A stretch of DNA of 34,723 nt from Chloroflexota bacterium. GTDB lineage: Bacteria > Chloroflexota > Anaerolineae > J036 > Brachytrichaceae. The notes beneath the pieces were generated by a model. That model was given only the letters and a program-made list of their open reading frames with translations, did no database searches and was not told the origin of the DNA. This document shows positions 1 to 30,839 of the stretch, piece after piece. The stretch's first letter is position 1. Each line of letters begins with the position of its first letter. The translations under genes were made by a program, and so were the position numbers. The DNA is taken from the NCBI GenBank assembly GCA_025354985.1, contig JANXLU010000079.1:1-34723 (forward strand), written 5' to 3'.

Positions 1-160
1 GGTTGAGGAAAGCGCCGAGGTGAATGTCTGCCGCCTCTACCTTCGGGAGAGGTGTGATGTGAGGGATAAACATCCGCATATTGTAGACCGCGATCCCCTC
101 ACTCCCGCGCCGTGTGAATGGCATCCCATTCTGGCCCTGACATGGATCCGAGTGAGTCAT
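1..160 (-). CDS. Possible partial hypothetical gene leaving the window (N-terminal 53 codons)
   Basis: On the minus strand an ATG at 160-158 follows a very strong Shine-Dalgarno sequence (AAAGGAGGTGA just upstream) and opens a frame that stays open to the window edge. The predicted start is MTHSDPCQGQNGMPF. I recognise no domain. The frame runs through a short UUCG hairpin (34-52) that recurs elsewhere in the window as an intergenic element, so the coding reading may be wrong or the gene may be small and decayed. The plus-strand stretch from 161 to 385 holds no convincing gene; the 65-codon frame starting at 192 there looks like chance. Confidence 0.3.
   Translation of the reverse strand, partial: MTHSDPCQGQNGMPFTRRGSEGIAVYNMRMFIPHITPLPKVEAADIHLGAFLN
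34..52 (+). repeat. UUCG-tetraloop hairpin, copy 1
   Basis: CCTCT at 34-38 pairs with AGAGG at 48-52, and CC/GG closes a TTCG loop at 42-45, with A39 bulged. The 12-mer CCTTCGGGAGAG (40-51) recurs at 59-70 of the 23801 block (23859-23870) beside tRNA-Gly. It resembles the dispersed hairpins common between genes in this kind of genome. Confidence 0.5.
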
Positions 161-385
161 TTCACCTCCTTTCGGTAACCCACAAAATAACATGAAGCTC
201 GAAACCCCATCAGGACGAATGTGGGCCAAACCCATACATCCAACCGCGCCCGCGGCGCTCCTCACGGCTCTCATAACCTCGGCCAAATCGCTGCAAAAAT
301 GGCCTGCGCCCACCTTGTTCCTTAACGCTTGCTTGGAAAACTTCGGTTCTACGACCCAAAAATCTGCCGCATACTTGGCCCCTCT

Positions 386-1174
386 ATGAATATTGGAAAT
401 GACTTGTCGGGGAAGGTGGCGCTTATTACCGGGGGTTCGCGGGGAATTGGCGCGTCTATCGCCCACGCGTACGCGCAGGCGGGTGCACGCGTGGTGTTGG
501 CGAGCAGAACGCTCGCCAGCTGCGAAGCCGTCGCAACCGAGGTGCGCGCCGCCGGCGGCCAGGCCCTCGCTATCGCCTGTCACACCGGTGATCGCAAGCA
601 GATCGACGCGATGGTGCAACGGGTGCTGGCGGACTATGGGCGCATCGATATATGCGTCAACAATGCCGCGACCAATCCGCATTTTGGCGCACTGTTGGAC
701 GCTACGGATGAGATGTGGGACAAGACCCTGCAAGTCAATATCAAGGGGTATTTTGCCGTGGCGCAGCTGTGTGCCCGGGCGATGTTGCAGCGGCGGGTCG
801 CCGGCTCGCACGACAGCATTGGCAAGATCATCAACGTGGCCTCGGTGGCCGGGCTGACGCCCGGTCGGCACATGGGGGTGTATTCTGTTACCAAGGCGGG
901 CGTGATCATGCTGACCAAAGCCCTGGCTCAGGAACTGGCCACGCAGGGCATCCAGGTAAATGCCATCGCGCCTGGCGTCATCCAAACCAAATTCAGCAGC
1001 ACACTTTGGACAAATGAGGCACTCACCACTCAGGTGACCGACAAGACCGGCCGGTTGGGCCAGCCCGACGACATTGCGGGGGCGGCCCTGTTTTTGGCGA
1101 CATCTGCGTCGGATTACGTAAATGGGTCCGTCATGGTGGTGGATGGCGGTCTCGAAGTGGCCGGGACGTTTTAA
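386..1174 (+). CDS. SDR-family oxidoreductase (LvaD-like position)
   Basis: Classical short-chain dehydrogenase/reductase of 262 residues. It has the cofactor loop TGGSRGIG at residues 15-22, the NNAA motif near 92-95, the structural Asn118 (QVNIKG), and the catalytic Ser153, Tyr166 and Lys170 (YSVTK). The C-terminus has the usual V-x-V-D-G-G turn. The family catalyses NAD(P)-dependent interconversion of an alcohol and a ketone in the cytosol. I chose ATG 386 because homology begins there; an in-frame ATG at 329 would add 19 unlikely residues. A CATACT hexamer lies 10 nt upstream and no Shine-Dalgarno is visible. The next two genes follow at 2 and 5 bp, so the three form one operon. The context suggests reduction of a 4-oxoacyl-CoA or oxidation of a 3-hydroxyacyl-CoA. 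The substrate is inferred, not visible. Confidence 0.93.
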   Translation: MNIGNDLSGKVALITGGSRGIGASIAHAYAQAGARVVLASRTLASCEAVATEVRAAGGQALAIACHTGDRKQIDAMVQRVLADYGRIDICVNNAATNPHFGALLDATDEMWDKTLQVNIKGYFAVAQLCARAMLQRRVAGSHDSIGKIINVASVAGLTPGRHMGVYSVTKAGVIMLTKALAQELATQGIQVNAIAPGVIQTKFSSTLWTNEALTTQVTDKTGRLGQPDDIAGAALFLATSASDYVNGSVMVVDGGLEVAGTF

Positions 1175-1176
1175 TC

Positions 1177-2361
1177 ATGATCAACTTGGATGAACTCAAT
1201 CAGTTTGTGCGTGCCGAGATCGTGCCTCTTGAGCAAAGGTTTTTGCAGGATGGGTTTGGCGCGGTGCTACCCGCGGTGGAGCATGTTCGCACGATGGTTC
1301 AACAACGCGGTTGGTGGTGCCCGCCAATGCCGGTCAACCTTGGGGGCATGGGCATGCCGCTGACCGAGTTTGCCCATGTAAGCGAGGCGCTTGGACGTAC
1401 GCCCATCGGGCATGTTTGTTTTAACGTGCAGGCGCCGGATATTGGCAACATGGAGCTGCTCCATGGGCACGGGTCCACCGCACATCACGCTGATTGGTTG
1501 GCCCCGCTCGCCGCCGGGCGCACGCGAAGCTGCTTCGCGATGACCGAGCCTGAGTTCGCGGGCAGTAACCCTGTGCACATGGCTACGCTTGCCCGCGACA
1601 CCGGTGATCACTACGAGATCACCGGTCACAAATGGTTTACCAGCGCAGCCGATGGCGCCGCCTTCGCTATTGTCATGGCGGTGACTAACCCGGACGCCGC
1701 GCCCCACCTGCGGGCCAGCCAGATCATTGTGCCAATGGACGCGCCGGGGATGACCATCGTGCGTAATATCAAAGTGATGGGTGAGCCGGGTGAGGGCTGG
1801 GCCAGCCACGCCGAGTTGCTGCTGGATCGGGTGAAGGTGCCCAAGACCAACCGCATTGGGGCCGAGGGCGCCGGGTTCACGCTGGCCCAGGAGCGGCTGG
1901 GGCCCGGGCGGATCCACCACTGCATGCGCTGGATTGGCATTTGCGAACGCGCCTATGCGCTTATGTGTGAGCGGGCCGCGACGCGTGCTCTGGCGCCCGG
2001 GCGGATGCTGGGCGAGAAACAAAGCGTGCAACACGCCATTGCGGATAGCCGTGCGGAGATATCCGCTGCGCGATTGTTGGTGCTGGATGCCGCGGAAAAA
2101 ATCGAGAAGCGCGGTCAGCGTGAGGCGCGGATTGAGATCGGGATGATCAAATACTTTGTGGCCGGGGTGCTGCAACGTGTGTTGGATCGCGCAATCCAGG
2201 TGCATGGCGCGCTCGGCGTAACCGACGATACGCCGCTGTCTTATTGGTATCGCCATGAACGCGCAGCGCGCATCTACGATGGCGCGGATGAGGTGCACAA
2301 GAACGTGGTCGCACGACACGAGCTGCGCAAATTTGGTCTGGATGTGCGATCGGAGGCTTAG
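1177..2361 (+). CDS. Acyl-CoA dehydrogenase, ACAD10/11-like
   Basis: FAD-dependent acyl-CoA dehydrogenase of 394 residues, the normal family length. The N-terminal helical domain is followed by the middle-domain signature CFAMTEPEFAGSNP (119-132), the HKWFTSAADG strand (about 151-160) and the C-terminal IQVHGALGVTDDTPL region. The end reads RIYDGADEVHKNVVAR (365-380). Canonical short- and medium-chain enzymes have Tyr-Glu-Gly-Thr at the catalytic base; here it is Tyr-Asp-Gly-Ala (Asp368). A D-G-x-D-E-V-H stretch is, as I recall, typical of the ACAD10/11 branch. The start lies 2 bp after the SDR stop and the kinase gene follows after 5 bp. With that kinase next door, a role in turning 4-phospho/4-hydroxyacyl-CoA into an enoyl-CoA or 3-hydroxyacyl-CoA is more likely than ordinary beta-oxidation. 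This role is inferred. Confidence 0.93.
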   Translation: MINLDELNQFVRAEIVPLEQRFLQDGFGAVLPAVEHVRTMVQQRGWWCPPMPVNLGGMGMPLTEFAHVSEALGRTPIGHVCFNVQAPDIGNMELLHGHGSTAHHADWLAPLAAGRTRSCFAMTEPEFAGSNPVHMATLARDTGDHYEITGHKWFTSAADGAAFAIVMAVTNPDAAPHLRASQIIVPMDAPGMTIVRNIKVMGEPGEGWASHAELLLDRVKVPKTNRIGAEGAGFTLAQERLGPGRIHHCMRWIGICERAYALMCERAATRALAPGRMLGEKQSVQHAIADSRAEISAARLLVLDAAEKIEKRGQREARIEIGMIKYFVAGVLQRVLDRAIQVHGALGVTDDTPLSYWYRHERAARIYDGADEVHKNVVARHELRKFGLDVRSEA

Positions 2362-2366
2362 CCGCC

Positions 2367-3422
2367 ATGATGGATGAGGCAACACGGGTGCGCCCTGGCG
2401 AGGAGCTGGATATTTCCCGGCTGGAACCATACGTGCGGTCAAGCCTGGGTACGGGCGCCGGATCCACCTTCGCCGTGTCGCAGTTCCCCGGTGGCTTCAG
2501 CAATCTGACGTATGCGCTGAACCTGGACGGCCGCGCGCTGGTGCTCCGACGCCCGCCATTTGGTGCGCACGTAAAGGGCGGACATGACATGTCCCGCGAG
2601 TTTCGTATTTTGAGCGGGCTGGCGCGGGGTTATGGCAAGGCGCCCAAGCCCGTGCTGATGTGTGAAGACGTCACCGTTATTGGTGCGCCGTTCTACGTGA
2701 TGGAACGTGTGGCGGGTGTGGTCTTGCGTGCCGGCACAAAGCAACCGCTGGACCCAACCATGATGCGCAACGCCAGCGAGGTGTTGGTGGACACCCTGGC
2801 CGATCTGCATACCCTTGATCCGGGTGCGCTCGGTCTGGGTGATCTTGGGAACCCGGTGGGCTACGTGGCTCGTCAGGTGAGCGGTTGGGCCGGGCGCTAT
2901 GACCGGGCGCAAACCGATGAGATCCCCGAGTTGCACGCGTGTGGCCGTTGGCTGGCCGATCACATTCCCGCCGCAATCGCGCCACCCGCGCTTATCCACA
3001 ATGACTTCAAATATGACAACGTCATGTTTGACGCTGCGGATCGCATCCGTATTGTCGCCGTGCTGGATTGGGAGATGGCCACGATTGGTGACCCGCTGAT
3101 GGATCTGGGCACCACGCTCGGCTATTGGTCTCAGGCGGAAGATGACGGGGTGTTGCGGGCGTTTAACCTGACCAGCCTGCCTGGCAACCTGGATCGATCC
3201 CAGGTGGTCGCGCGGTATGCCGCGCGCACCGGAGCAGAGGCCGGCAACATCGTCTTCTATTACGTGTTTGGGCTGTTCAAGATTGCCGTGATCGTGCAAC
3301 AGATTTACGCCCGATACCGGTGTGGTGCCACGACTGACCCACGATTCGCCCGGCTGGGTGCGCTTGTGGTCGCGATGGCGCGTCAGGCCACGCGGGCGAT
3401 TGATTCGGGGCGCTTGCAATAG
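2367..3422 (+). CDS. APH-family phosphotransferase (LvaA / ACAD10-11 kinase-domain-like)
   Basis: Kinase-like protein of 351 residues in the aminoglycoside phosphotransferase fold. An N-lobe glycine stretch (FPGGFSNLTYAL) and the RRPPFGAH segment at 61-68 precede the catalytic loop HNDFKYDN (211-218; Asp213 is the likely base). The metal-binding motif follows in LDWEMATIGDP (233-243). In mammals and many bacteria this domain is fused to or encoded beside an ACAD10/11-type dehydrogenase and phosphorylates 4-hydroxyacyl-CoA. Here it lies directly behind that dehydrogenase. Antibiotic resistance is therefore an unlikely role despite the family name. The start is ATG 2367; the second ATG at 2370 is equally possible. 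The gene ends the trio; the next gene points the other way. Confidence 0.9.
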   Translation: MMDEATRVRPGEELDISRLEPYVRSSLGTGAGSTFAVSQFPGGFSNLTYALNLDGRALVLRRPPFGAHVKGGHDMSREFRILSGLARGYGKAPKPVLMCEDVTVIGAPFYVMERVAGVVLRAGTKQPLDPTMMRNASEVLVDTLADLHTLDPGALGLGDLGNPVGYVARQVSGWAGRYDRAQTDEIPELHACGRWLADHIPAAIAPPALIHNDFKYDNVMFDAADRIRIVAVLDWEMATIGDPLMDLGTTLGYWSQAEDDGVLRAFNLTSLPGNLDRSQVVARYAARTGAEAGNIVFYYVFGLFKIAVIVQQIYARYRCGATTDPRFARLGALVVAMARQATRAIDSGRLQ

Positions 3423-3447: not shown

Positions 3448-4113
3448 CTATCCAGGCTGGATGCGTCGACCGACCAGCCGGTTGATAAGCTGGAAGAAAA
3501 GAATCAGTACGATCAACAACAGCATGACGCCTGCTGCGTTCAACAGCGCGCGCGGATAGCCGATGGTGGTCACGTCGATAAAGAAATACGGATACGAATT
3601 CAGGATCGCGCCCCGCACAAACACATACGCCAGATAGAACAACGGATACCACATGAGGGTGGGCCAGCTGGCTGGCATCAGGCTGATGCCACGCCGGGGA
3701 ACTGTCAGCCACCAAAACACCACCGTGAAGAACGGAACAATGTAGTGCAGCGCCAAATCGGCCCAGAATTGTGCGCCTTGCAAGCCCCCTGGTTTTCGCA
3801 GGACAAAGTGATACACCGACCACACCACCATGATGGATGCGGCCGCCGCAGTAAGGTTCTGTGGGCGCCGCAGAAACCGCCAGACGCCGGGAGCGATGGA
3901 CGCCAACCCGTGTGCGGCAAAGATCAGCGCCGCGAACATATTCGTGAGGATGGTGAAGTAGCCAAGATATTCGACCAGACCCGCGAAGGCGCCCGCGCCG
4001 TTGACAATAGCGGCGGAAATGGTGAGGTAGGCCTGCAACAGCAGCGCGAGCGCGGCAAATACCGCGGCGGCGGGGCCGATTCGGTGCGGCAGGGTGGATG
4101 TGCGATGTGTCAT
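3448..4113 (-). CDS. Pr6Pr-family integral membrane protein
   Basis: A 221-residue protein with about six hydrophobic helices. It carries patterns I associate with the Pr6Pr (FAR-17a/AIG1-like) family: FTILTNMFAAL after the second helix, W-S-V-Y-H-F-V-L in the middle, LHYIVPFFTVVFWW, and WYPLFYLAYVFVRGA followed by YPYFFIDV. No enzymatic function is established for the bacterial members that I know of. It is transcribed divergently from the ABC permease, with 53 bp between the start codons. A longer overlapping frame (3434-4168) on the same strand does not encode this membrane pattern and was rejected. Confidence 0.85.
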   Translation of the reverse strand: MTHRTSTLPHRIGPAAAVFAALALLLQAYLTISAAIVNGAGAFAGLVEYLGYFTILTNMFAALIFAAHGLASIAPGVWRFLRRPQNLTAAAASIMVVWSVYHFVLRKPGGLQGAQFWADLALHYIVPFFTVVFWWLTVPRRGISLMPASWPTLMWYPLFYLAYVFVRGAILNSYPYFFIDVTTIGYPRALLNAAGVMLLLIVLILFFQLINRLVGRRIQPG

Positions 4114-4166: not shown

Positions 4167-5123
4167 ATGGTTCAATACATTCTCCGCCGCGTGCTCATCA
4201 ACATACCGGTTTTAATTGGAATCACCCTGGCGGTATTCCTATTGATCTCATTGGCTCCCGGTGATCCTCTGTCGGCCTACATCAGTCCGGAGCTGGGTCG
4301 CGACCCGGCCACGATTGCCGCGCTTAGAACCAAGTTCGGCTTTGACCAACCGCTCCCGGTGCGCTATCTGAATTGGCTGGCGCAAGCCCTGCAAGGGAAT
4401 CTGGGCTATCGGATCAAGACCTATGACCCGGTCTGGGCGGTTATCCTCCAACGTATTCCAGCCACGCTGATGCTGATGGTGACCGCGCTCGGCATTGGCA
4501 TCGTTGTGGGCGTGCCGCTTGGCATCTTCTCCGCGCTGCGAAAATACACGCTGCCGGATATGGTCCTCACGGGTGGGGTCTTTCTCGGTATCAGCACGCC
4601 CGCGTTTCTGGTTGGTTTGGGGTCGTTGTTTGTCTTTTCGCTTGGGTTGCGGCTGTTTCCGGCTGGCGGGATGCATACGCTCGGTCGGGACGAAAGCGTT
4701 ATTGACACAATTCATCACCTTGCGCTGCCAGCACTGATACTGAGCGCCAACTACATTGCCAGTATGCTTCGCTACACGCGCGCAAGTATGCTGGATGTGA
4801 TTGGTGAACAATACGTAATTACGGCGCGGGCCAAAGGGCTGCCCGAGCGGATGGTAATCCTCAAGCACGCGTTGAGCAATGCCTTGATCCCAATCGTCAC
4901 GGTCATTGGTTTTTCGATTCCCAATCTGCTCGCTGGCGCGGTCTTCACCGAAACCATCTTCGCCTGGCCGGGCATGGGCTCACTGTTCGTCGATGGCGTC
5001 AACTCGCGGGATTTCCCCCTGATGATGGGTGTAACGCTCGTCACCGCCACGGCAGTCCTGTTCTTCAATTTGTTGACCGACATCGCCTATGCGTTGATCA
5101 ACCCCAAGGTTCGCTACGCGTGA
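4167..5123 (+). CDS. ABC transporter permease, DppB/OppB type
   Basis: Inner-membrane permease of 318 residues beginning MVQYILRRVLINIPVLIG, the usual opening of DppB-like subunits. The N-terminal APGDPL motif follows the first helix, and the EAA coupling loop ITARAKGLPERMVILKHAL lies near residues 212-230. The end is NPKVRYA, typical of the family. A longer in-frame start at 4098 would add 23 residues with no homology. A TACAAT hexamer lies at 4136-4141 and no Shine-Dalgarno is seen. Its stop overlaps the start of the second permease (GTGA), so the two are translationally coupled. The substrate class is peptides, nickel or oligosaccharides; the neighbours favour a sugar- or peptide-derived compound. 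Confidence 0.95.
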   Translation: MVQYILRRVLINIPVLIGITLAVFLLISLAPGDPLSAYISPELGRDPATIAALRTKFGFDQPLPVRYLNWLAQALQGNLGYRIKTYDPVWAVILQRIPATLMLMVTALGIGIVVGVPLGIFSALRKYTLPDMVLTGGVFLGISTPAFLVGLGSLFVFSLGLRLFPAGGMHTLGRDESVIDTIHHLALPALILSANYIASMLRYTRASMLDVIGEQYVITARAKGLPERMVILKHALSNALIPIVTVIGFSIPNLLAGAVFTETIFAWPGMGSLFVDGVNSRDFPLMMGVTLVTATAVLFFNLLTDIAYALINPKVRYA

Positions 5124-6040
5124 ACCGGGCGAAAACCAACATGCAATCACCAGCTTCCGCCCAAAACCTGGCGACCGGCAATTCAACCAGCCGACGCGCG
5201 TGGCGGCGCTTCCGGCGCAGCAAGCTCGCCTTTGTCGGCCTCGTCGTTGTCGCGCTCATGGCAATTCTCGCGCTCGCGGCCCCGCTTGTGGCCCAACAGG
5301 ATCCGCTAAAGAATGACCTGCTAAACCGGTCCAAGCCGCCTTCCGCCGAGCATATTTTTGGCACGGATCGTACCGGTCGGGATGTCTTCTCGCGCACGAT
5401 TTATGGCGGGCGCATCTCTCTTCTTGTGGGTCTCGTGGCCGTCACGCTATCGGTCTCGATCGGAACCGTGCTTGGGCTCGTGTCGGGCTTCTACGGTGGT
5501 TTGGTCGATAACATCGTGATGCGGCTCACCGACGTCATCATGGCCTTTCCGCCGATCATCATCATCATGGCCGCGGTCCCAATTGTCGCCAACTTGCTCC
5601 CGAGCGAAGCAACCATCTACGGCATCATGGCGGTTATCGGCTTGCTCACCTGGCCGCAATTGGCCCGCCTGATCCGCGGCCAAACGCTGGTGCTCCATGG
5701 CGCCGAATATGTAATCGCTGCTCAAGGCTTGGGCGCGAGCAAGGCCCGCCAGATGTTCGTGCACATCCTTCCGCAGACCCTGGCCTCGTTGCTGGTGTTT
5801 GCCACATTTGGAATTGCCAGCGCGATTCTGCTCGAAGCCGGCTTGAGTTTTCTTGGGCAGGGCGTGCAGCCACCCACCCCCAGTTGGGGCAATATGGTCG
5901 AAACCGCACGCAGCCTCGACATTCTGGAAAATCTGCCTTGGACCTGGGCTGCGCCGGGCATGGCGATTGTTATCACGGTAATATCAATCAACTTTATCGG
6001 AGATGCGCTGCGCGATGCAGTCGACCCCAAATCCAAATGA
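5120..6040 (+). CDS. ABC transporter permease, DppC/OppC type
   Basis: Second permease subunit, 306 residues, starting at GTG 5120 inside the stop of the first permease. An N-terminal basic stretch (RRAWRRFRRSK) precedes helix 1. HIFGTDRTGRDVFSR is the conserved segment ahead of the permease domain. The EAA loop is IAAQGLGASKARQMFVHILP, and GLSFLGQGVQPPTPSWGNM is the hallmark DppC motif. The C-terminus is GDALRDAVDPKSK. It should form the membrane channel with the preceding subunit. The two cognate ATPases are not in the window and the binding protein lies about 3.2 kb downstream. ATG overlap (ATGA) links it to the following oxidoreductase. Confidence 0.95.
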   Translation: MNRAKTNMQSPASAQNLATGNSTSRRAWRRFRRSKLAFVGLVVVALMAILALAAPLVAQQDPLKNDLLNRSKPPSAEHIFGTDRTGRDVFSRTIYGGRISLLVGLVAVTLSVSIGTVLGLVSGFYGGLVDNIVMRLTDVIMAFPPIIIIMAAVPIVANLLPSEATIYGIMAVIGLLTWPQLARLIRGQTLVLHGAEYVIAAQGLGASKARQMFVHILPQTLASLLVFATFGIASAILLEAGLSFLGQGVQPPTPSWGNMVETARSLDILENLPWTWAAPGMAIVITVISINFIGDALRDAVDPKSK

Positions 6041-7134
6041 AGACATACAAAGCTGCCGTTATCGGCCTCAGTCACATCTCGCAGGCGCGCTCGCCGAGCC
6101 CTCTGTCGCTCCCTTCGGTTGATCCCATGCCACGCTCGCACGTCGCCGCATATGCCGGGCATCCGAGGGTTACGCTGGTTGGCGCCTGTGACCTGATGCC
6201 CGCCGCAATCGACAGGTTTAACGCCACCTGGCGCGATGTCCATCCCGCTACGCGGATGTATACGGATTATCGCGAGATGCTGGACAAGGAGAAACCGGAT
6301 ATCGTCAGCGTTATCACCCCCGATGACCGGCACGCCGATATCGTCGTAAATGTCGCCAATGCCGGCGTCGCGGGCATTTGGTGCGAGAAGCCGATAGCCA
6401 CCACCCTCGCTGACGCCGACCGGATGATCGAGGCGGTGGAGCGCAATGGCACGGCCATGACGGTTAGCCACACCCGGCGCTGGATGCCGCTGTATCACAA
6501 GGCCCGCGAGCTGGTGCGCGACAAGACGTATGGCGAGCTCAAGGTGCTTACCGCAACCATGTACTACGCGCGGGCAATGCTGTTCCGCAACGGCACTCAT
6601 ATCTTTGACATGCTGTGTTTCCTGGCCGATGCCCGCCCGGAGTGGCTGATCGCCGAGCTTGAAGACGGCTTTGACGGCTTTGATCGCTATCGTGGTGACG
6701 GCGGAAACGAGATCTCGAGCGAACCATCGGCCAACGCCTACATCAAGTTTGCCAACGGCGTGCGTGCCAATTTGATGATGCAAAAGAGCAATAACCTGAC
6801 CAATGTGATCGAGATGGTGTTTGAGAACGGAGTTGCCCGCATCGTGGGCGACGGGCAAATCATCATCAACCGTGTGGACGGCGGCCCATCCACCTCAACC
6901 CGCAGCGCGATCAGCATCGCACAGACGCTCGGCCATGAAGATTGGGTGGCCGACCGTGAATTGGGCATCCTGTCGGAAATCGTGCATGCGCTGGACACGG
7001 GAACCAAGCCAATGCTTTCTCCACCACGGGCAGCCCGTCAAACCCTGTCGATTCTGCTGGCCATTCTCGAATCGCACGCCAAAGGCAATGCCAGGGTCAC
7101 AATCGATGCCGGTCCCGCGTCCATCGCGTCATAA
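6037..7134 (+). CDS. Gfo/Idh/MocA-family oxidoreductase with divergent cofactor loop
   Basis: A 365-residue protein beginning MKTYKAAVIGLSHIS at ATG 6037, which overlaps the permease stop. The family-defining CEKPI (116-120) sits at the expected place after SVITPDDRHADIV, and a C-terminal alpha/beta domain follows (RRWMPLYHKARELV, then FRNGTHIFDML with the expected H-I-F-D). The family oxidises or reduces sugars and related polyols with NAD(P). The nucleotide loop is odd: after the first Gly it reads L-S-H-I-S and is followed by about 15 extra residues rich in Ser and Pro before SHVAAYAGHPRVTLVGACD. Cofactor binding may therefore differ from the family norm. A longer frame upstream (from 5884) is only the overlap with the permease gene. 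Confidence 0.9.
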   Translation: MKTYKAAVIGLSHISQARSPSPLSLPSVDPMPRSHVAAYAGHPRVTLVGACDLMPAAIDRFNATWRDVHPATRMYTDYREMLDKEKPDIVSVITPDDRHADIVVNVANAGVAGIWCEKPIATTLADADRMIEAVERNGTAMTVSHTRRWMPLYHKARELVRDKTYGELKVLTATMYYARAMLFRNGTHIFDMLCFLADARPEWLIAELEDGFDGFDRYRGDGGNEISSEPSANAYIKFANGVRANLMMQKSNNLTNVIEMVFENGVARIVGDGQIIINRVDGGPSTSTRSAISIAQTLGHEDWVADRELGILSEIVHALDTGTKPMLSPPRAARQTLSILLAILESHAKGNARVTIDAGPASIAS

Positions 7135-7143
7135 TCAATTACT

Positions 7144-8196
7144 ATGAAGGCTTTGCTGGTCGGTCCAGAGAACCCGCATTTTATCGGGCATTTGCGCACG
7201 TTGCAGTGTCTTGACGAAGTGTCCGAGATCCACCTCGCGGCCTGCGATGATGGCGACGCGCCGCTGCTCGAAGAAGCACGGCTGGCACATCCCGCCAAGG
7301 TGATGAGCACGGGCGCGGATGTGGCGACCATGCTCCAGCATCATAAGTTTGACTTTGTGGTTGGTTGCCCGCGTAATGACCGCTGCGCCAGTGTTTACGA
7401 ACGCGTGCTCGGGGCGGGCATACCCTTACTCGCCGAAAAACCCATCGGGCGCAATGCGGCTGAAGTAGTGCGTGTGGTTGAGCAGGCCCACCGCGCCGCT
7501 GTGCCGCTCGGCGTCTTCTATGTAAATCGCCTGCATCCGGCGGTCCAGGCCGCGCGCAACTTCGTGCGCGATGGCTTGTTGGGTGAGCTCATGGCGGTTG
7601 AGTTGCGCTGGTATACCACCCAGCCAAAATTTCGTGATCCGAAGCACTGGCTCTTCAATCGTGCACAGTCGGGTGGCGGCATCGTGCAGTGGCTGGGCTG
7701 CCACCTGATCGATTTGGCGCACCACGTAACCGGCGAGGAGATAACCAACGCGGCGGGTGCGCTGGCAACGCGCAGCGGTGAAGCTATTGATGTTGAAGAC
7801 GCGGCCGCGATTATTATGAAGTTTTCCGGTGGCGCGGTTGGCAGCCTTGATTGTGGTTTTGTGCTCGCCCAAAGCGGGGCCGGTTATTACAACCGCGCGG
7901 GCAACGATACACATGTGGCGTTCATTGGCACACAGGGCCGGGTATGGTGGACGCCCACCGAATCACCCTGCGTGGTGCATTTTGAGAGCACCCAGGCAAG
8001 CTGGGCTCACACGCCGCGCCGTGAGCTTCAGTTTGAGTTGCCGGAATCGCCCGCTTACGGCGGGGTTCACGGCCTCGCGTTTGTCCAGGCTTTTATGCGC
8101 GCAACGCAAGGCGCAGGCGCGCCCGTCGCCACCGGCGAAGACGCATTGCGTGTTGCGCGTATCACGGATTTAATTTATGCCAATGCGATTACTTGA
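7144..8196 (+). CDS. Second Gfo/Idh/MocA-family oxidoreductase
   Basis: A 350-residue paralogue of the previous gene, 9 bp downstream. It has LLAEKPIG (95-102) and the C-terminal-domain stretch NRAQSGGGIVQWLGCHLIDLAHH, where the His and Asp of H-L-I-D-L are the usual active-site pair. The N-terminus MKALLVGPENPHFIGHL has no GxGxxG. As in the upstream paralogue the dinucleotide loop is not canonical. A CATAAT hexamer lies 8 nt before the ATG and there is no Shine-Dalgarno. Two adjacent oxidoreductases of this family in a transporter cluster suggest successive steps on one carbohydrate-like substrate, or a heteromer. That is inference. Confidence 0.88.
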   Translation: MKALLVGPENPHFIGHLRTLQCLDEVSEIHLAACDDGDAPLLEEARLAHPAKVMSTGADVATMLQHHKFDFVVGCPRNDRCASVYERVLGAGIPLLAEKPIGRNAAEVVRVVEQAHRAAVPLGVFYVNRLHPAVQAARNFVRDGLLGELMAVELRWYTTQPKFRDPKHWLFNRAQSGGGIVQWLGCHLIDLAHHVTGEEITNAAGALATRSGEAIDVEDAAAIIMKFSGGAVGSLDCGFVLAQSGAGYYNRAGNDTHVAFIGTQGRVWWTPTESPCVVHFESTQASWAHTPRRELQFELPESPAYGGVHGLAFVQAFMRATQGAGAPVATGEDALRVARITDLIYANAIT

Positions 8197-8236
8197 CAGT
8201 CTAATGGACTTTTATGCCAGGTCACTGCATTAAAAC

Positions 8237-8243
8237 AAAGGAG
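8237..8243 (+). promoter_or_regulatory. Strong ribosome binding site of the FAH-family gene
   Basis: AAAGGAG lies 5 nt before ATG 8249. It is one of the few clear Shine-Dalgarno sites in the window and fixes this start. Confidence 0.8.
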
Positions 8244-8248
8244 AACAC

Positions 8249-9166
8249 ATGAAATTTGTCACATTTAAAACCGCAACAACGCCGGCGCGTGCCGGCATGG
8301 TGCATGGCGGCATGGTCTATGACCTTGCCAACACCGCGGAGGCCGTGGGTGTTCAATTGCCCGCGAGCGTGCTCGCTTGGTTGCACCTGGGCGCGCCCGG
8401 GCATCAGCTCGCTGCCAAGGTTCTGGCGCTTGCGCTAGACCGCGGGTTGCCGGGTTGTCCCATCACTGAAGCAGTGATGCTGGCGCCTGTCACCGATCCG
8501 CCCAAGATCCTGGCGCTGGCGGGCAACTATCAGGCCCATATCCAGGAGGCCGGGCACAAGGCGGTTGACAAAAACGCCATCACGCCGCGTGTGTTTATGA
8601 AGCCGATCACCACGCTGGTTGGCACCAAGGCGCCCATTCTGCTGCCACCCATCTCCAGGCACGTGGATTATGAGCTCGAGCTGGCGATTGTGATCGGCGC
8701 CCAAGGCAGCCGCATCCCGGTGGCAAATGCCCTGGATCATGTCGCGGGTTATGCCGTTTATAACGATGTATCCAGCCGCAAGTTGGTGATCTCCGAGGGT
8801 CGATCGGTGCGCGATGGTGATGGCTTCTACGACTGGTTGATGGGCAAGTGGCAGGATAACTCCGGCCCTATGGGGCCGTATCTGGTGACCAGGGATGAGG
8901 TGCCCGATGGCGACAATTTGGATATGAAGCTGTGGGTAAATGGCGAGTTGCGCCAGAACTCAAACACGTCCAAAATGATCTTTAACATCCCGGAGATCGT
9001 AGCGTTTTGTTCCACCCTGGTCACGTTGCAGGTGGGCGACATCATCGCAACGGGCACACCAAGCGGCGTGGGTGATGCCAGCGGCACCTATCTAAAAGCC
9101 GGGGATGTGGTTCGCTGCGAAATCGAGATGCTGGGTGTGCTGGAGAACACCGTGCAGGGCGGATAG
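8249..9166 (+). CDS. Fumarylacetoacetate hydrolase (FAH) family protein
   Basis: A 305-residue enzyme of the FAH superfamily. The core begins at KILALAGNYQAHIQEAG (about 87-103). The metal-binding acidic residues lie in VDYELELAIVIG (139-150) and YNDVSSR (171-177). It ends with the family signature VGDIIATGTPSGVG, then GDVVRCEIEMLG. Members cleave or decarboxylate C-C bonds in 2,4-dioxo acids using Mg2+ or Mn2+. They act in aromatic catabolism and in the non-phosphorylative breakdown of sugars such as L-fucose and L-rhamnose. With two Gfo/Idh enzymes and an ABC transporter beside it, the sugar-acid role is a reasonable guess. The start is set by the strong ribosome site at 8237-8243. Confidence 0.93.
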   Translation: MKFVTFKTATTPARAGMVHGGMVYDLANTAEAVGVQLPASVLAWLHLGAPGHQLAAKVLALALDRGLPGCPITEAVMLAPVTDPPKILALAGNYQAHIQEAGHKAVDKNAITPRVFMKPITTLVGTKAPILLPPISRHVDYELELAIVIGAQGSRIPVANALDHVAGYAVYNDVSSRKLVISEGRSVRDGDGFYDWLMGKWQDNSGPMGPYLVTRDEVPDGDNLDMKLWVNGELRQNSNTSKMIFNIPEIVAFCSTLVTLQVGDIIATGTPSGVGDASGTYLKAGDVVRCEIEMLGVLENTVQGG

Positions 9167-9174
9167 CACCTTGT

Positions 9175-9202
9175 TTGACAGGACCCCTGCGATCACTATA
9201 AT
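9175..9202 (+). promoter_or_regulatory. Near-consensus sigma70-type promoter for the substrate-binding protein
   Basis: A perfect TTGACA (9175-9180) and a perfect TATAAT (9197-9202) are separated by 16 bp, in the 51-bp gap between the FAH gene and the binding-protein gene. This is the strongest promoter seen in the window. It would give the binding protein its own, higher expression, which is common for transporter binding proteins. Confidence 0.85.
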
Positions 9203-9217
9203 GAAAATCGGTCAACT

Positions 9218-10933
9218 ATGGTCAACCACAGTATGAACAATATGACAACAAAACTTTTTTCCGTTGCTGCGGCAACTGCACTGCTGCTGGCCGCCTGTGC
9301 ACAGCCAACCGCTGAGCCCACCAAGGCGCCCGCACCAGTTGCAACGGTGGCGCCGGCTGCACCCGCGGCCACAACCGCTCCTGCGCCGGCGGCGGCGCCT
9401 GCAAATTCGGGAAACATCATCATCGGTGCTTTTGATCAGGGCCCGGGCGGGTTCCCTGAGCGTTTTAACAATTTCCAGGCTGGCGCCGGGCACTATGTGT
9501 TTGAGCTGTATTTCAGCAAACTCGTGCGTTACTGCGACACCTCGCTGAGCAAAATGTGTGGCGATATGGCGGAGAAGTGGGAAGTGACGCCGGATGGCAA
9601 GACGGTGACGTTCAGCATCCGCAATATGAAGTGGCACGATGGCAGTGCGGTCACTGCGGATGATGCGGCTTTTACGATTGAGCGCCAATTCAACAAAGTT
9701 GACAGCCGTTATTCGGGTAACTTTGCCGCAATCTCAGGCTCCGCCGGATTTGATCCCGCGAAGGGCAAACTGTCCGGCCTGACCGTTGTCGATGCGAAGA
9801 CGCTCAAGATTTCGCTCGACAAGCCGCAACCGGCGCTGCTTGACACGCTGTCATTTATCGCCATCATCCAGAAGAAGCAATGGGAGAAAGTCGCCCCGGG
9901 TGACATGAACGGCAGCGATATCTGGAAGAACGGCATTATCGGCAGCGGCCCGTTCGTGTTCAGCAAGTATGTCCCCGGGCAGTACACCGAGTTCCTGCCG
10001 TTTGCCGACTACTACGGTGGCAAGCCCAAGGTTGACAAGCTGATAAACCGCTACTTCCCCGAGGCCGGCACCGCCCTCATCGCTGTCCAGAAGGGGGAGA
10101 TCGATTTCACCTATGTAACGGTCGACGAGTTGGACAAGATCAAGACCAACGCCGATCTCAAAATCATCGAGGGACCATCCCTGGTCGGCCAGTCGATGTA
10201 TTTCAATCTGCGCACAAAAGGTTTCGACAACGTCAAGGTCCGCCAGGCAATCATGTTTGCGGTTGATCGCGATCTGATCATCAAGACCCTGTGGAAGGGC
10301 ACCGCGCTTCCGAGCAACTGCTTCTTCTCTCCCGCCGGCCCGTATAACTACAAGGATTCGAACCCATATAAGTTCAATCCGGATAAGGCCAAGGCATTGT
10401 TGAAGGAAGCGGATTTCGATCCTGCCTCGCTTGGCGAGCTACAGTTCTTGACGTACTACGGCGATCAGCTCACCAAGGACATGTTGGCCGTCATTACCGA
10501 GCAGCTTAGCGCCATCGGCTTCAAGACCAAAATGCGCTATGTGGACGTGCCGACATTTAATAGCGAGTTCTACACCGCCGACCCGAAGTGGACATTTGGC
10601 TGGGTGGGCGCTGGCAACGGCCCGGAGCCCGACAACGTCTACACCTCCCACCACTCGTCTGAAGAGTGGCCAAAGGGCATAAACATCAACGTGATCAAAA
10701 ATGCTGATCTTGACAAGCTCCTCGACGCCGGTCGCATTGAACTGGATCCGGCCAAGCGAACTGAGATATACCAGAATGTGTGCAAGCTGAGCAATGACCT
10801 GGCGCTTCGAGGATACATGCTGGAGAGCACGCGCTACGGCACGGCCAGCAAAAAGCTCGGCAACTTCATCTACACGCCTTCCCCGGGTGGTGGTCGTTAC
10901 CTGGCTTTCCCGGAGAAGTGGACCAAGGGCTAA
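9218..10933 (+). CDS. ABC transporter substrate-binding lipoprotein, family 5 (peptide/oligosaccharide type)
   Basis: A 571-residue extracytoplasmic binding protein. A lipoprotein signal ending in the lipobox L-A-A-C (Cys27 counted from ATG 9218) is followed by a linker rich in Ala, Pro and Thr to about residue 65, then the SBP_bac_5 fold. Family motifs include FELYFSKLVRYC, MAEKWEVTPDGKTVTFSIR, KWHDGSAVTADDAAFTIER, GSGPFVFSKYVPG and the hinge-side VRQAIMFAVDRD. The start could also be ATG 9233 or ATG 9242; 9242 gives the neatest signal peptide (MTTKLFSVAAATALLLAAC). It probably feeds the permeases at 4167-6040. The ligand cannot be read from sequence. Confidence 0.95.
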   Translation: MVNHSMNNMTTKLFSVAAATALLLAACAQPTAEPTKAPAPVATVAPAAPAATTAPAPAAAPANSGNIIIGAFDQGPGGFPERFNNFQAGAGHYVFELYFSKLVRYCDTSLSKMCGDMAEKWEVTPDGKTVTFSIRNMKWHDGSAVTADDAAFTIERQFNKVDSRYSGNFAAISGSAGFDPAKGKLSGLTVVDAKTLKISLDKPQPALLDTLSFIAIIQKKQWEKVAPGDMNGSDIWKNGIIGSGPFVFSKYVPGQYTEFLPFADYYGGKPKVDKLINRYFPEAGTALIAVQKGEIDFTYVTVDELDKIKTNADLKIIEGPSLVGQSMYFNLRTKGFDNVKVRQAIMFAVDRDLIIKTLWKGTALPSNCFFSPAGPYNYKDSNPYKFNPDKAKALLKEADFDPASLGELQFLTYYGDQLTKDMLAVITEQLSAIGFKTKMRYVDVPTFNSEFYTADPKWTFGWVGAGNGPEPDNVYTSHHSSEEWPKGININVIKNADLDKLLDAGRIELDPAKRTEIYQNVCKLSNDLALRGYMLESTRYGTASKKLGNFIYTPSPGGGRYLAFPEKWTKG

Positions 10934-28175: not shown

Positions 28176-29009
28176 TCAGGAATGCTTGACGGGCTTTGCG
28201 GCGACACCTGATGCGCTGTCCGGGGTTTCGCGCGCGACAGGTTGGTTCGCAGAAAAGCGGGGCTTGCCCCAACGGTAAACCAGGACGGTTGCGGTGAGCC
28301 AGACACTGCCCAGCAAATAGGCTGCCATGACGTCACTGGGCCAATGCTGGCCCATATAGACCCGCGACACGCCAACCAGCGTTACCATCGCGCCGAGTAC
28401 AAGCAGTATTGCCGACCGCCACCAGGAAGGTTTAAGCAGGGTGTAGGCCAAAAACATCTGAAATCCAAAGAACACAGTAAAGAACAACACGTGACCGCTT
28501 GGAAAAGAGAAATCATTCAACTGGCTGAGGACGTTTACCAAATCCGCGCTCGGACGAGGGCGGTCGACCAAAACCTTAAGGGCGAGGCCAAGAGCAGTGC
28601 TGCCAGCAACGCTTATTGCCGATACCGCAGACTCCCACTTTAAGCCGCTTACAAAGAGGGCCACCAACACAAGCAACGTGATCACGTAAGCCTGGGGTCC
28701 AAATCCGATCCAGGTCAATGTGCGCATCAGCACGTCAAACCACGCAGGATGGAATGACTGAATGAGCTGGGCGATGGACAGGTCGAACGTGAAATATGCG
28801 ACCGTTTTCGCAAGCACCGCCAGGACCAGAAAGACGATCACGGCGACAACCAGGTAGGCAAGGAAGATATTGGCACGATAGCGTCGCCATGGTTTCCCGA
28901 CGACCGCGCCTGCCTCGCCAAGAATCCTGCGCCATTTGTTGACGGGCTCGGTGACCACCTGTACGGCAACGGCCACTGGTGGTACTACTGGTTCGTTTTG
29001 TTTAGCCAT
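28176..29009 (-). CDS. PAP2-family membrane phosphatase (1)
   Basis: A 277-residue integral membrane phosphatase with all three signature motifs. These are K145-x6-R152-P153 (KVLVDRPRP), PSGH at 170-173 and S215-R216-x5-H222-x3-D226 (SRVYMGQHWPSD). Five to six helices surround them, after a ~45-residue polar N-terminus. The family dephosphorylates phosphatidate, undecaprenyl pyrophosphate or related lipid phosphates at the membrane outer face. It is the last gene of a minus-strand lipid-phosphate operon, 65 bp after the kinase. Because its motifs are intact it should be active. Confidence 0.93.
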   Translation of the reverse strand: MAKQNEPVVPPVAVAVQVVTEPVNKWRRILGEAGAVVGKPWRRYRANIFLAYLVVAVIVFLVLAVLAKTVAYFTFDLSIAQLIQSFHPAWFDVLMRTLTWIGFGPQAYVITLLVLVALFVSGLKWESAVSAISVAGSTALGLALKVLVDRPRPSADLVNVLSQLNDFSFPSGHVLFFTVFFGFQMFLAYTLLKPSWWRSAILLVLGAMVTLVGVSRVYMGQHWPSDVMAAYLLGSVWLTATVLVYRWGKPRFSANQPVARETPDSASGVAAKPVKHS

Positions 29010-29074
29010 ATTATGTTTCCCCGCTCCCGCGCACCGCGAATGATCGCAGGCGATGGATCAGTTTGATATGTCGT

Positions 29075-30106
29075 TCAGGGCTGTGGGACCGGTCCTTTCC
29101 CGTCCATGCTGACTTCCGCTGGTGGTACCGCGTGGCCGGCGGGGACGGGCAGAACCTTGATGGCTTCTGTTTGCGGTTTTTCGATACCCCGGCCTGGTTT
29201 TGGCGCGATTACCCGGAGGGCACCAGCGCGCACCTTAATGGTCACCTTGCCTTTGCCCAGCATGACTCCGTCAGCCATGACCTGCATTTTGGGATCGGTC
29301 TTTATGGTCAACGTGCTTGAGCGATAGCGCTGTATGCCCTCATCCATGGTCTTGCCCTCGTGCACGGTTTTTGCAAAGTAGGCAGCGAGTTGGGTCTTGC
29401 TGAATTCTGGATACACGGAAATATCCAGAAGTCCATCATCAAGGCAGGCATCCGGAGCCACCAGGAAATTCAAACCAATGAGCGGAACGTTTGAGACCGT
29501 CACCATCATCGTCTCAACCGTGATCTTGCTGCCACCGTCCATGGTCAGCGACACCTTGGGCGTGGTTTCTGCCTGCAAGAGGGTGGACACCACATCTTTG
29601 ATCTTCAACAGGCTACCCTTGCGGATATCTTCCGCCGCCGGGTAAATGGCCGCTGCAATTCCGATAACCGCCAATTCGAAGAAGTGAAACTTCTTGCCAT
29701 CTTTTACCCGTATCTGACCAAGATCCAGCTTTCGCACGTGACCCGAAGAAATCACTTCACACGCCTCTTCCAGAACATCCGGGATCCCCAGGCTTTTGGC
29801 AAGATTATTGGCTGTGCCGGCGGAAATGATGCCGAGAGGCGTTTTTGAGCCCGCCAACCCCCGGATAATGGCTTCGATCGTGTCATCCCCCCCCATCGCG
29901 ATCACCACCTTGTAGCCATCCTTGACCGCCTTTCTTGCGATGCCAATGGCTTCCTCCTTGGGCTTGGCAATTGCCACATCCAGCTTGACGCCATTTTGTT
30001 GCAGGCAGCGGGTGGCTTGTTCAATAAGCGCGGTCCTGCTGGAGGCGGTGCCTGAACCGGGGTTGGCGATCAGGAGGCTCGTCTTGTTTTTATTGTTCTT
30101 TGACAT
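29075..30106 (-). CDS. Diacylglycerol kinase-like lipid kinase (DAGK_cat family)
   Basis: A 343-residue lipid kinase of the DgkB/YegS/sphingosine-kinase group. N-terminal TSLLIANPGSG is the usual first strand and loop. The nucleotide motif reads AMGGDDTIEAIIRGL (70-84), where relatives have G-G-D-G-T-x-N-E; the second Gly is Asp here. IISAGTANNLAKSLGIP (93-109) is the conserved G-T-x-N-D/N-x-A segment. The C-terminal beta-sandwich domain includes APDACLDDGLLDISV. The last ~35 residues are Pro-rich. The start is supported by AAGGA upstream of ATG 30106, and the gene overlaps the upstream phosphatase gene by 17 bp. It would phosphorylate diacylglycerol or another membrane lipid. Confidence 0.88.
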   Translation of the reverse strand: MSKNNKNKTSLLIANPGSGTASSRTALIEQATRCLQQNGVKLDVAIAKPKEEAIGIARKAVKDGYKVVIAMGGDDTIEAIIRGLAGSKTPLGIISAGTANNLAKSLGIPDVLEEACEVISSGHVRKLDLGQIRVKDGKKFHFFELAVIGIAAAIYPAAEDIRKGSLLKIKDVVSTLLQAETTPKVSLTMDGGSKITVETMMVTVSNVPLIGLNFLVAPDACLDDGLLDISVYPEFSKTQLAAYFAKTVHEGKTMDEGIQRYRSSTLTIKTDPKMQVMADGVMLGKGKVTIKVRAGALRVIAPKPGRGIEKPQTEAIKVLPVPAGHAVPPAEVSMDGKGPVPQP

Positions 30107-30839
30107 GTGAAACGATCCTTTTCTTAAAAATCAACTCGACCACTGTGTAGGCCAGTCCGCACCAGGCAATACCAAGCGCATAGCCGGCTAAAACATCCGT
30201 TGGATAGTGGTCACCAACAAAGACGCGACTAAATCCGATAAATAAAACGATGAGCCCGGCGGCCATGATTACAGCCGCCTTCCCCATCCGCCCGGGCACC
30301 AGCGGTACCAGCAAATACGCGAGCAGACCAAAACACATGACCGCACTGATGCTGTGACCACTGGGGAACCCGGGTGCGGTCATTTGACGCCACACCGATA
30401 CATCAAACACGGGCCGTTGGCGGTGAAAGTATCCCGAGAGCACGAGCCACATCGAGGCTTCACCGGCCCAGGCGACGACTACCATGATCAGCTCGGGCCA
30501 GAAACGCTTGTAAATAAAGTACACACAGAGGGCGGCGCCAATGAGCGCGATGGCATGTTCGCCCAGGTAAAAGCCAAAAATCATGACATCACGCACCCAG
30601 GGTGCACTTTGTAGCGCAATTGCATGGAGACCATTGGCCACCAGGACATCCATCTGAATGAGCAGCCCATTGGTTGTCAGGCTCAACGCCAGCACGCCGA
30701 ATAAGCTTCCACCCAAAATGAGCATCACGAGCCCGATCATTGGCCGCCGTGCGAAGACCCCCGGGGAATGCAAACCTCCGCGGATGGCCGCGCCAGGTCG
30801 CGTTAGATGATCGGGTGTTGTCGATGTCATTGTGCTCAT
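30090..30839 (-). CDS. PAP2-family membrane phosphatase (2)
   Basis: A 249-residue polytopic membrane protein. Motif 2 is PSGH (159-162) and motif 3 is S204-R205-x5-H211-x3-D215 (SRVFVGDHYPTD). Motif 1 keeps R142-P143 (HRQRPVF), but the position of the usual Lys, seven residues before Arg142, is Ser135. Catalytic His residues are therefore present with a changed phosphate-binding motif. It is the second gene of the operon and overlaps the lipid kinase by 17 bp, which suggests linked translation. A lipid-phosphate substrate is likely. Confidence 0.92.
   Translation of the reverse strand: MSTMTSTTPDHLTRPGAAIRGGLHSPGVFARRPMIGLVMLILGGSLFGVLALSLTTNGLLIQMDVLVANGLHAIALQSAPWVRDVMIFGFYLGEHAIALIGAALCVYFIYKRFWPELIMVVVAWAGEASMWLVLSGYFHRQRPVFDVSVWRQMTAPGFPSGHSISAVMCFGLLAYLLVPLVPGRMGKAAVIMAAGLIVLFIGFSRVFVGDHYPTDVLAGYALGIAWCGLAYTVVELIFKKRIVSHVKEQ

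Follow-up and report, generated by a model that had tools for sequence, protein, structure and literature searches.

What does a bacterium do with a short-chain dehydrogenase/reductase (SDR), an atypical acyl coenzyme A (acyl-CoA) dehydrogenase (ACAD), and a kinase of the APH fold that are encoded in one tight string? This question is raised by positions 386 to 3,422 of a 34,723-nucleotide contig of a Chloroflexota bacterium (GenBank assembly GCA_025354985.1, contig JANXLU010000079.1). We analyzed the entire contig (C97 in our set), which we call the window. A preliminary description, made from the letters alone, had likened the trio to lvaD-lvaC-lvaA of the Pseudomonas levulinate (lva) pathway and to animal ACAD10 and ACAD11. 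The open reading frames (ORFs) and Pfam domains confirmed three such genes on the same strand, with 2 bases between the SDR and ACAD genes and 5 bases between the ACAD and APH genes, an arrangement that is not due to chance:

386-1174, plus strand: SDR; ATG at 386, stop codon ending at 1174, 262 amino acids; Pfam adh_short_C2, 8.8e-58
1177-2361, plus strand: ACAD; 394 amino acids; Pfam Acyl-CoA_dh_1, 1.5e-37, plus the middle and N-terminal domains
2367-3422, plus strand: APH kinase; 351 amino acids; Pfam APH, 5e-46

We consider it likely that these genes form a self-contained catabolic module through which a 4-hydroxyacyl-CoA would enter β-oxidation by way of phosphorylation and phosphate elimination. 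This reading rests on observed gene content, residues, trees, a recurring operon, and β-oxidation genes; for the kinase and elimination chemistry, we draw on characterized relatives.

The dehydrogenase

The best match of the ACAD in the PDB was human ACAD11 (258 bits), with the Mycobacterium protein 4hr3 at 241 bits. The best ordinary ACAD scored 127 bits, which puts ACAD11 about twofold above any ordinary ACAD. In a tree of 64 proteins, five groups each fell on one side of a branch: the ordinary ACADs (support, 100/100), LvaC (100/99), an actinobacterial group (100/100), ACAD10/11 (100/99), and the group that contains the window protein (96/95). A larger quick tree was concordant. The ACAD did not group with the ordinary short-chain ACADs, and the preliminary description was right to call it ACAD10/11-like at the level of the superfamily. 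From its sequence, we assign the protein to the ACAD10/11-LvaC superfamily and, within it, to a third well-supported bacterial clade that is neither LvaC nor ACAD10/11.

In ACAD11, the catalytic base is D753, and the ligands of the 4-phosphate are R626, H634, and R637, residues "not found in conventional ACADs," while R631 is classed as general (PMC12440821). An alignment of 117 proteins showed that D368, R240, H248, and R251 of the window ACAD are the counterparts of D753, R626, H634, and R637, respectively; the protein also has H247 and, in the place of R631, R245, which likewise does not vary in the window and ACAD10/11 clades. Equivalents of the four ACAD11 residues were kept in 43/43 members of the window clade, 49/49 members of the ACAD10/11 clade, and 5/5 members of the LvaC clade. 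All 104 superfamily members that we aligned have Asp at the base position; 13/13 ordinary ACADs have Glu there, and none of them has the Arg/His cluster. LvaC agrees with the window ACAD in the base (Asp) and in the Arg/His residues with one exception, Thr in place of H633. The window clade differs from the ACAD10/11 clade at diagnostic positions of its own (129, 131, 132, 168, 210, and 364 in the window protein). We propose that the ACAD is a phosphate-eliminating 4-phosphoacyl-CoA lyase that gives 2-enoyl-CoA.

The kinase and the absence of LvaB

The kinase scored highest in the PDB against 9o56 (324 bits), which is named only "aminoglycoside phosphotransferase," followed by the ACAD11 kinase domain (167 bits) and the Ralstonia-type protein 3dxp. 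The 9o56 protein, the closest solved kinase, groups with Bacillaceae kinases in ACAD10/11-type loci, but the ACAD partners of its group belong to the ACAD10/11 clade. Residues R77, E78, R169, D213, N218, and D234 of the window kinase correspond to R86, the helix-C Glu, R176, D220, N225, and the metal-binding Asp of ACAD11. The catalytic Asp and Asn and the equivalents of the CoA-contacting Arg86 and Arg176 were present in 34/34 kinases from window-clade loci. Rooting the kinase tree on the other APH proteins of the genome gave branches of 3 to 9 changes per site, which made it unusable, and we rebuilt it without these proteins. In the rebuilt tree, the window kinase lies with kinases of like operons (97/93, 21 rows), apart from LvaA (100/98) and from ACAD11 and 3dxp (100/99). 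Kinase groups and ACAD clades mismatch slightly, in that kinase types have been swapped between a few loci of the window and ACAD10/11 clades. The NCBIfam models for antibiotic and thiamine kinases gave at best 31.7 bits (cutoff, 299.45) and 26.5 bits (cutoff, 390). The view that the kinase is not of the antibiotic type thus holds, and the protein is ACAD11-like; this assignment relies on the scores, since long branches distorted the tree that included the other APH proteins of the genome. We propose that it is an ACAD11/9o56-type APH-fold enzyme that acts as an ATP-dependent 4-hydroxyacyl-CoA kinase and has no need of LvaB.

Our statements on LvaB rest on PMC6692424. We picked lva reference operons by content from Pseudomonas (L118), Stutzerimonas (L124), a Pseudomonas aeruginosa plasmid (L192), and Azoarcus (L125); the DUF6285 gene of the plasmid operon is annotated lvaB, "4-hydroxypentanoyl-CoA kinase subunit LvaB." The preliminary description had reported LvaB and a CoA ligase as absent nearby, and Pfam and NCBIfam profile searches found neither a CoA ligase nor DUF6285/LvaB in the window. 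A search for DUF6285 (PF19802) in the window's genome, which is 95.8% complete, gave zero matches. Across the phylum, DUF6285 occurred in 13/400 genomes, with none from the window's class among the matches listed.

Among 81 kinases, the Arg176-Gln motif was missing in 21/21 with DUF6285 in the locus and present in 59/60 without it. LvaA is without the R176 motif, which the window kinase has. The 21 DUF6285-associated kinases form one branch of the kinase tree, and the 60 others, the window kinase included, form the other. Part of the DUF6285 set was retrieved through DUF6285 itself, and the tree needs one change (support, 100), a single event; we therefore rejected the split as an independent correlation. 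The idea of a compact pathway that had lost LvaB did not survive this comparison, since its absence is the norm for this kinase type. Judged by these sequences, the absence of LvaB is a mark of the kinase type and not of a reduced pathway. One ORF of Actinomycetospora chibensis (L072:4457-7183) encodes both an APH kinase and DUF6285 and lies upstream of a gene of the ACAD10/11 superfamily; this fusion speaks for LvaB as a partner of the kinase.

Animal ACAD10 and ACAD11 and their bacterial homologues, such as those of Burkholderia pseudomallei, have the same catalytic, phosphate-contacting, and CoA-contacting residues as the window proteins and likewise lack LvaB. The B. pseudomallei homologues stood in for the ACAD10 domains in vitro on 4-hydroxyhexanoyl-CoA, and LvaB is not named in the purification and assay passages of that report (PMC11342911). 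The animal kinase and ACAD are fused, whereas those of the window are two polypeptides, the ACAD ORF ending in a stop codon and the kinase starting at a new ATG at 2367. Tentatively, we suggest two mechanistic types of kinase, a scheme that we hold to be possible but somewhat less than even in its chances. The LvaA type, without the R176-type CoA-contacting motif, would rely on DUF6285/LvaB (fused to it in Actinomycetospora) to recognize the CoA substrate, whereas the ACAD11 and window type, which has the motif, would hold CoA itself and never need LvaB. On this scheme, the window clade would represent a third bacterial lineage of the pathway that works without LvaB, in phyla from which the pathway has no prior description.

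The short-chain dehydrogenase/reductase

The best of all NCBIfam models for the SDR was NF005446/PRK07035, at 285.7 bits, under the cutoff of 373. An SDR of the same clade from a Spirochaetia locus (L068) scored 379.2 bits with this model, and the nearest model for the SDR of the lva operon is PRK06949. The window SDR lies in a clade of 28 SDRs (support, 98) that covers Chloroflexota, Bacteroidota, Pseudomonadota, and Spirochaetota; every member comes from an ACAD locus of the window group or the ACAD10/11 group. Some bacterial loci of the ACAD10/11 clade (Marinobacter, Salinisphaera, and Burkholderia) hold an SDR of this clade. Because the clade recurs at such loci, the SDR is tied to the kinase-ACAD pair more firmly than by adjacency in one genome. 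The tree separates this clade from LvaD (99) and from the genome's other SDRs, and by this placement the window SDR is not the counterpart of LvaD by descent. Its role, which we infer only weakly along with the direction, may be the NAD(P)-dependent interconversion of 4-oxoacyl-CoA and 4-hydroxyacyl-CoA.

Proposed pathway and alternatives

This ACAD and this kinase are each encoded once in the genome. The genome also encodes, elsewhere than in the trio, at least eight AMP-binding proteins, six strong enoyl-CoA hydratases, three strong 3-hydroxyacyl-CoA dehydrogenases, and thiolases. In the proposed pathway, one of the genome's several CoA ligases would make the CoA ester, and the kinase would use ATP to phosphorylate the 4-hydroxyl of the 4-hydroxyacyl-CoA. 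The atypical ACAD, with flavin adenine dinucleotide and Asp368, would then eliminate the phosphate with no net oxidation, and the resulting 2-enoyl-CoA would pass into β-oxidation through the hydratases, 3-hydroxyacyl-CoA dehydrogenases, and thiolases from elsewhere in the genome. The SDR would most likely reduce a 4-oxoacyl-CoA to the 4-hydroxy form or interconvert the two, a step that would open the use of keto acids and possibly of an unfavored stereoisomer.

Several points weigh against this pathway. A literature search found no assayed member of the window ACAD clade. The nearest tested relatives are about 43% (ACAD) and 34% (kinase) identical, values judged on a Burkholderia cenocepacia locus that is a putative ortholog of the tested proteins. 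Same-genus relatives retain the ACAD-APH pair without an adjoining SDR, and the SDR is therefore not essential.

The trio might instead be the levulinate pathway proper, with 4-oxopentanoate as its natural substrate, and the same three enzyme types in one operon and the fitting chemistry of LvaD, LvaC, and LvaA speak for this. The likeness drawn in the preliminary description stood for the enzyme types and for the catalytic and phosphate-binding residues. It failed as a close mirror, since identity to the Pseudomonas reference operon (L118) is only 35% for the ACAD, 28% for the kinase, and 37.5% for the SDR, the ACAD falls outside both the LvaC and the ACAD10/11 clades, the kinase is outside the LvaA clade, and the SDR is of a lineage other than LvaD. 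The Pseudomonas operon comprises LvaA-LvaB-LvaC-LvaD-LvaE with a regulator and a symporter; LvaB is missing from the genome, and no LvaE, LvaR, or cation-acetate symporter adjoins the trio. We therefore rejected membership in the lva operon and regard the levulinate pathway proper as quite improbable here. Still more remote, to the point of being scarcely credible, is an ordinary short-chain ACAD beside an unrelated antibiotic- or choline-type kinase. The Pfam annotation is generic and would allow it, but the tree split from the ordinary ACADs, the change from Glu to Asp, the Arg/His cluster, and the kinase model scores (26 to 32 bits against cutoffs of 299 and 390) refute it.

With the same kinase-elimination chemistry, the hydroxyl could lie elsewhere, or the acyl group could be unusual (branched, aromatic, or a natural-product acid), with the SDR acting on that compound. 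The clade's own diagnostic residues, unlike those of ACAD10/11, are consistent with this, as is a relative (L055) that adjoins an HpaB-family gene in a β-oxidation cluster. However, the phosphate-contacting residues are all identical to those of ACAD11, which argues for the same phosphate position, and a 3-hydroxyacyl-CoA dehydrogenase comes next in several operons; we find a different hydroxyl or acyl group unlikely. The SDR could also be the 3-hydroxyacyl-CoA dehydrogenase of the next β-oxidation step and not a 4-oxoacyl-CoA reductase, since many SDRs catalyze that reaction and the window operon has no such enzyme of its own. Yet the same SDR clade stands beside a dedicated enzyme in Bacteroidota operons and in L068, where it would be redundant. 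We view this assignment of the SDR as doubtful, with perhaps some chance of being right, and we retain the 4-hydroxyacyl-CoA module as the preferred reading.

If the module is real, bacteria would break down 4-hydroxy and 4-keto acids through phosphorylated CoA esters far more widely than one would judge from the Pseudomonas lva operon, with Chloroflexota, Bacteroidota, Gemmatimonadota, Thermodesulfobacteriota, Myxococcota, and Spirochaetota among the phyla concerned. In such genomes, genes that now go by the names "acyl-CoA dehydrogenase," "aminoglycoside phosphotransferase," and "SDR" would gain a testable function. It would also offer a reason why some organisms need LvaB while others, including animals, do without it.

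Limits of the operon

Because the trio begins 385 bases from the left end of the contig, the statement that genes are absent nearby needed a check beyond the window. Two features flank the trio:

1-385: 5' region of the operon, gene-free, promoter probably inside; matches the end of contig C90 at about 97%
3448-4113, minus strand: Pr6Pr-family membrane protein; convergent, ends the operon downstream, outside the module

The first ~650 bases of C90 match window positions 558 to 1, reversed, in two blocks that a short unaligned stretch separates; the identity is about 97%. This match (window 1-558 with G000:C90:1-652) probably reflects strain variation in the assembly, so C90 is likely the upstream neighbor. 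Beyond the overlap, C90 has a gene oriented away from the trio and no visible co-transcribed gene farther upstream, the contig join being inferred. Neither the window cluster nor the upstream part of C90 holds a CoA ligase, PrpR-like regulator, or symporter like those of L118, L124, and L192. If the join is right, the trio would be a closed three-gene operon without a CoA ligase or LvaB. We excluded the Pr6Pr gene from the module on two grounds: it runs convergent to the trio, and a same-genus relative has a TauE/SafE gene after the kinase.

Distribution and gene neighborhoods

Hosts of the window ACAD clade belong to Chloroflexota, Bacteroidota, Gemmatimonadota, Thermodesulfobacteriota, and other phyla, and the gene order is often SDR-ACAD-APH. 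We recognized a kinase gene in 33/42 loci of the clade and an SDR gene in 19/42, many loci being truncated by contig ends. In four Bacteroidota loci (L041, L050, L051, and L054, the last from Aquiflexum lacus), SDR, ACAD, APH, and 3-hydroxyacyl-CoA dehydrogenase genes form one string, and a 3-hydroxyacyl-CoA dehydrogenase gene lies in the same string in the Spirochaetia locus. Its presence in these strings fits a product that enters β-oxidation.

The relatives with the ACAD-APH pair and no adjoining SDR are three members of the same genus; the one that is annotated has an aminotransferase-family gene upstream instead. The gene is present in all three same-genus genomes, in 1/24 other family members, and again in other families of the class. 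This patchy distribution in the family suggests loss or horizontal transfer.

Both lva operons and clusters of the Deltaproteobacteria type repeatedly have a histidine phosphatase gene next to the kinase and ACAD genes (L124:5243-6004, L125:9381-10058, L129:9894-10592, and window-clade loci L045, L046, L052, L056, L058, L062, and L068). This gene is absent from the window. The enzyme possibly clears wrongly phosphorylated acyl-CoAs. In a single-cell Bacteroidetes genome (L055:4255-14098), three SDRs, MaoC, an enoyl-CoA hydratase, the ACAD, the HpaB-family protein, the kinase, and two further ACADs are encoded in one string; the HpaB-family gene may encode a second enzyme for the hydroxyacyl-CoA.

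Other genes in the window

Positions 4170-10933 encode, on one strand, OppB/OppC-type permeases, an SBP_bac_5 binding protein, two Gfo/Idh/MocA oxidoreductases, and a hydrolase of the FAH family that lies near the 2,4-didehydro-3-deoxy-L-rhamnonate hydrolase model. The cluster looks as if it served to take up and degrade a sugar acid or a glycan. At 28176-30839 on the minus strand, a diacylglycerol-kinase-like (YegS/LCB5-type) protein is encoded between two PAP2-superfamily phosphatases.

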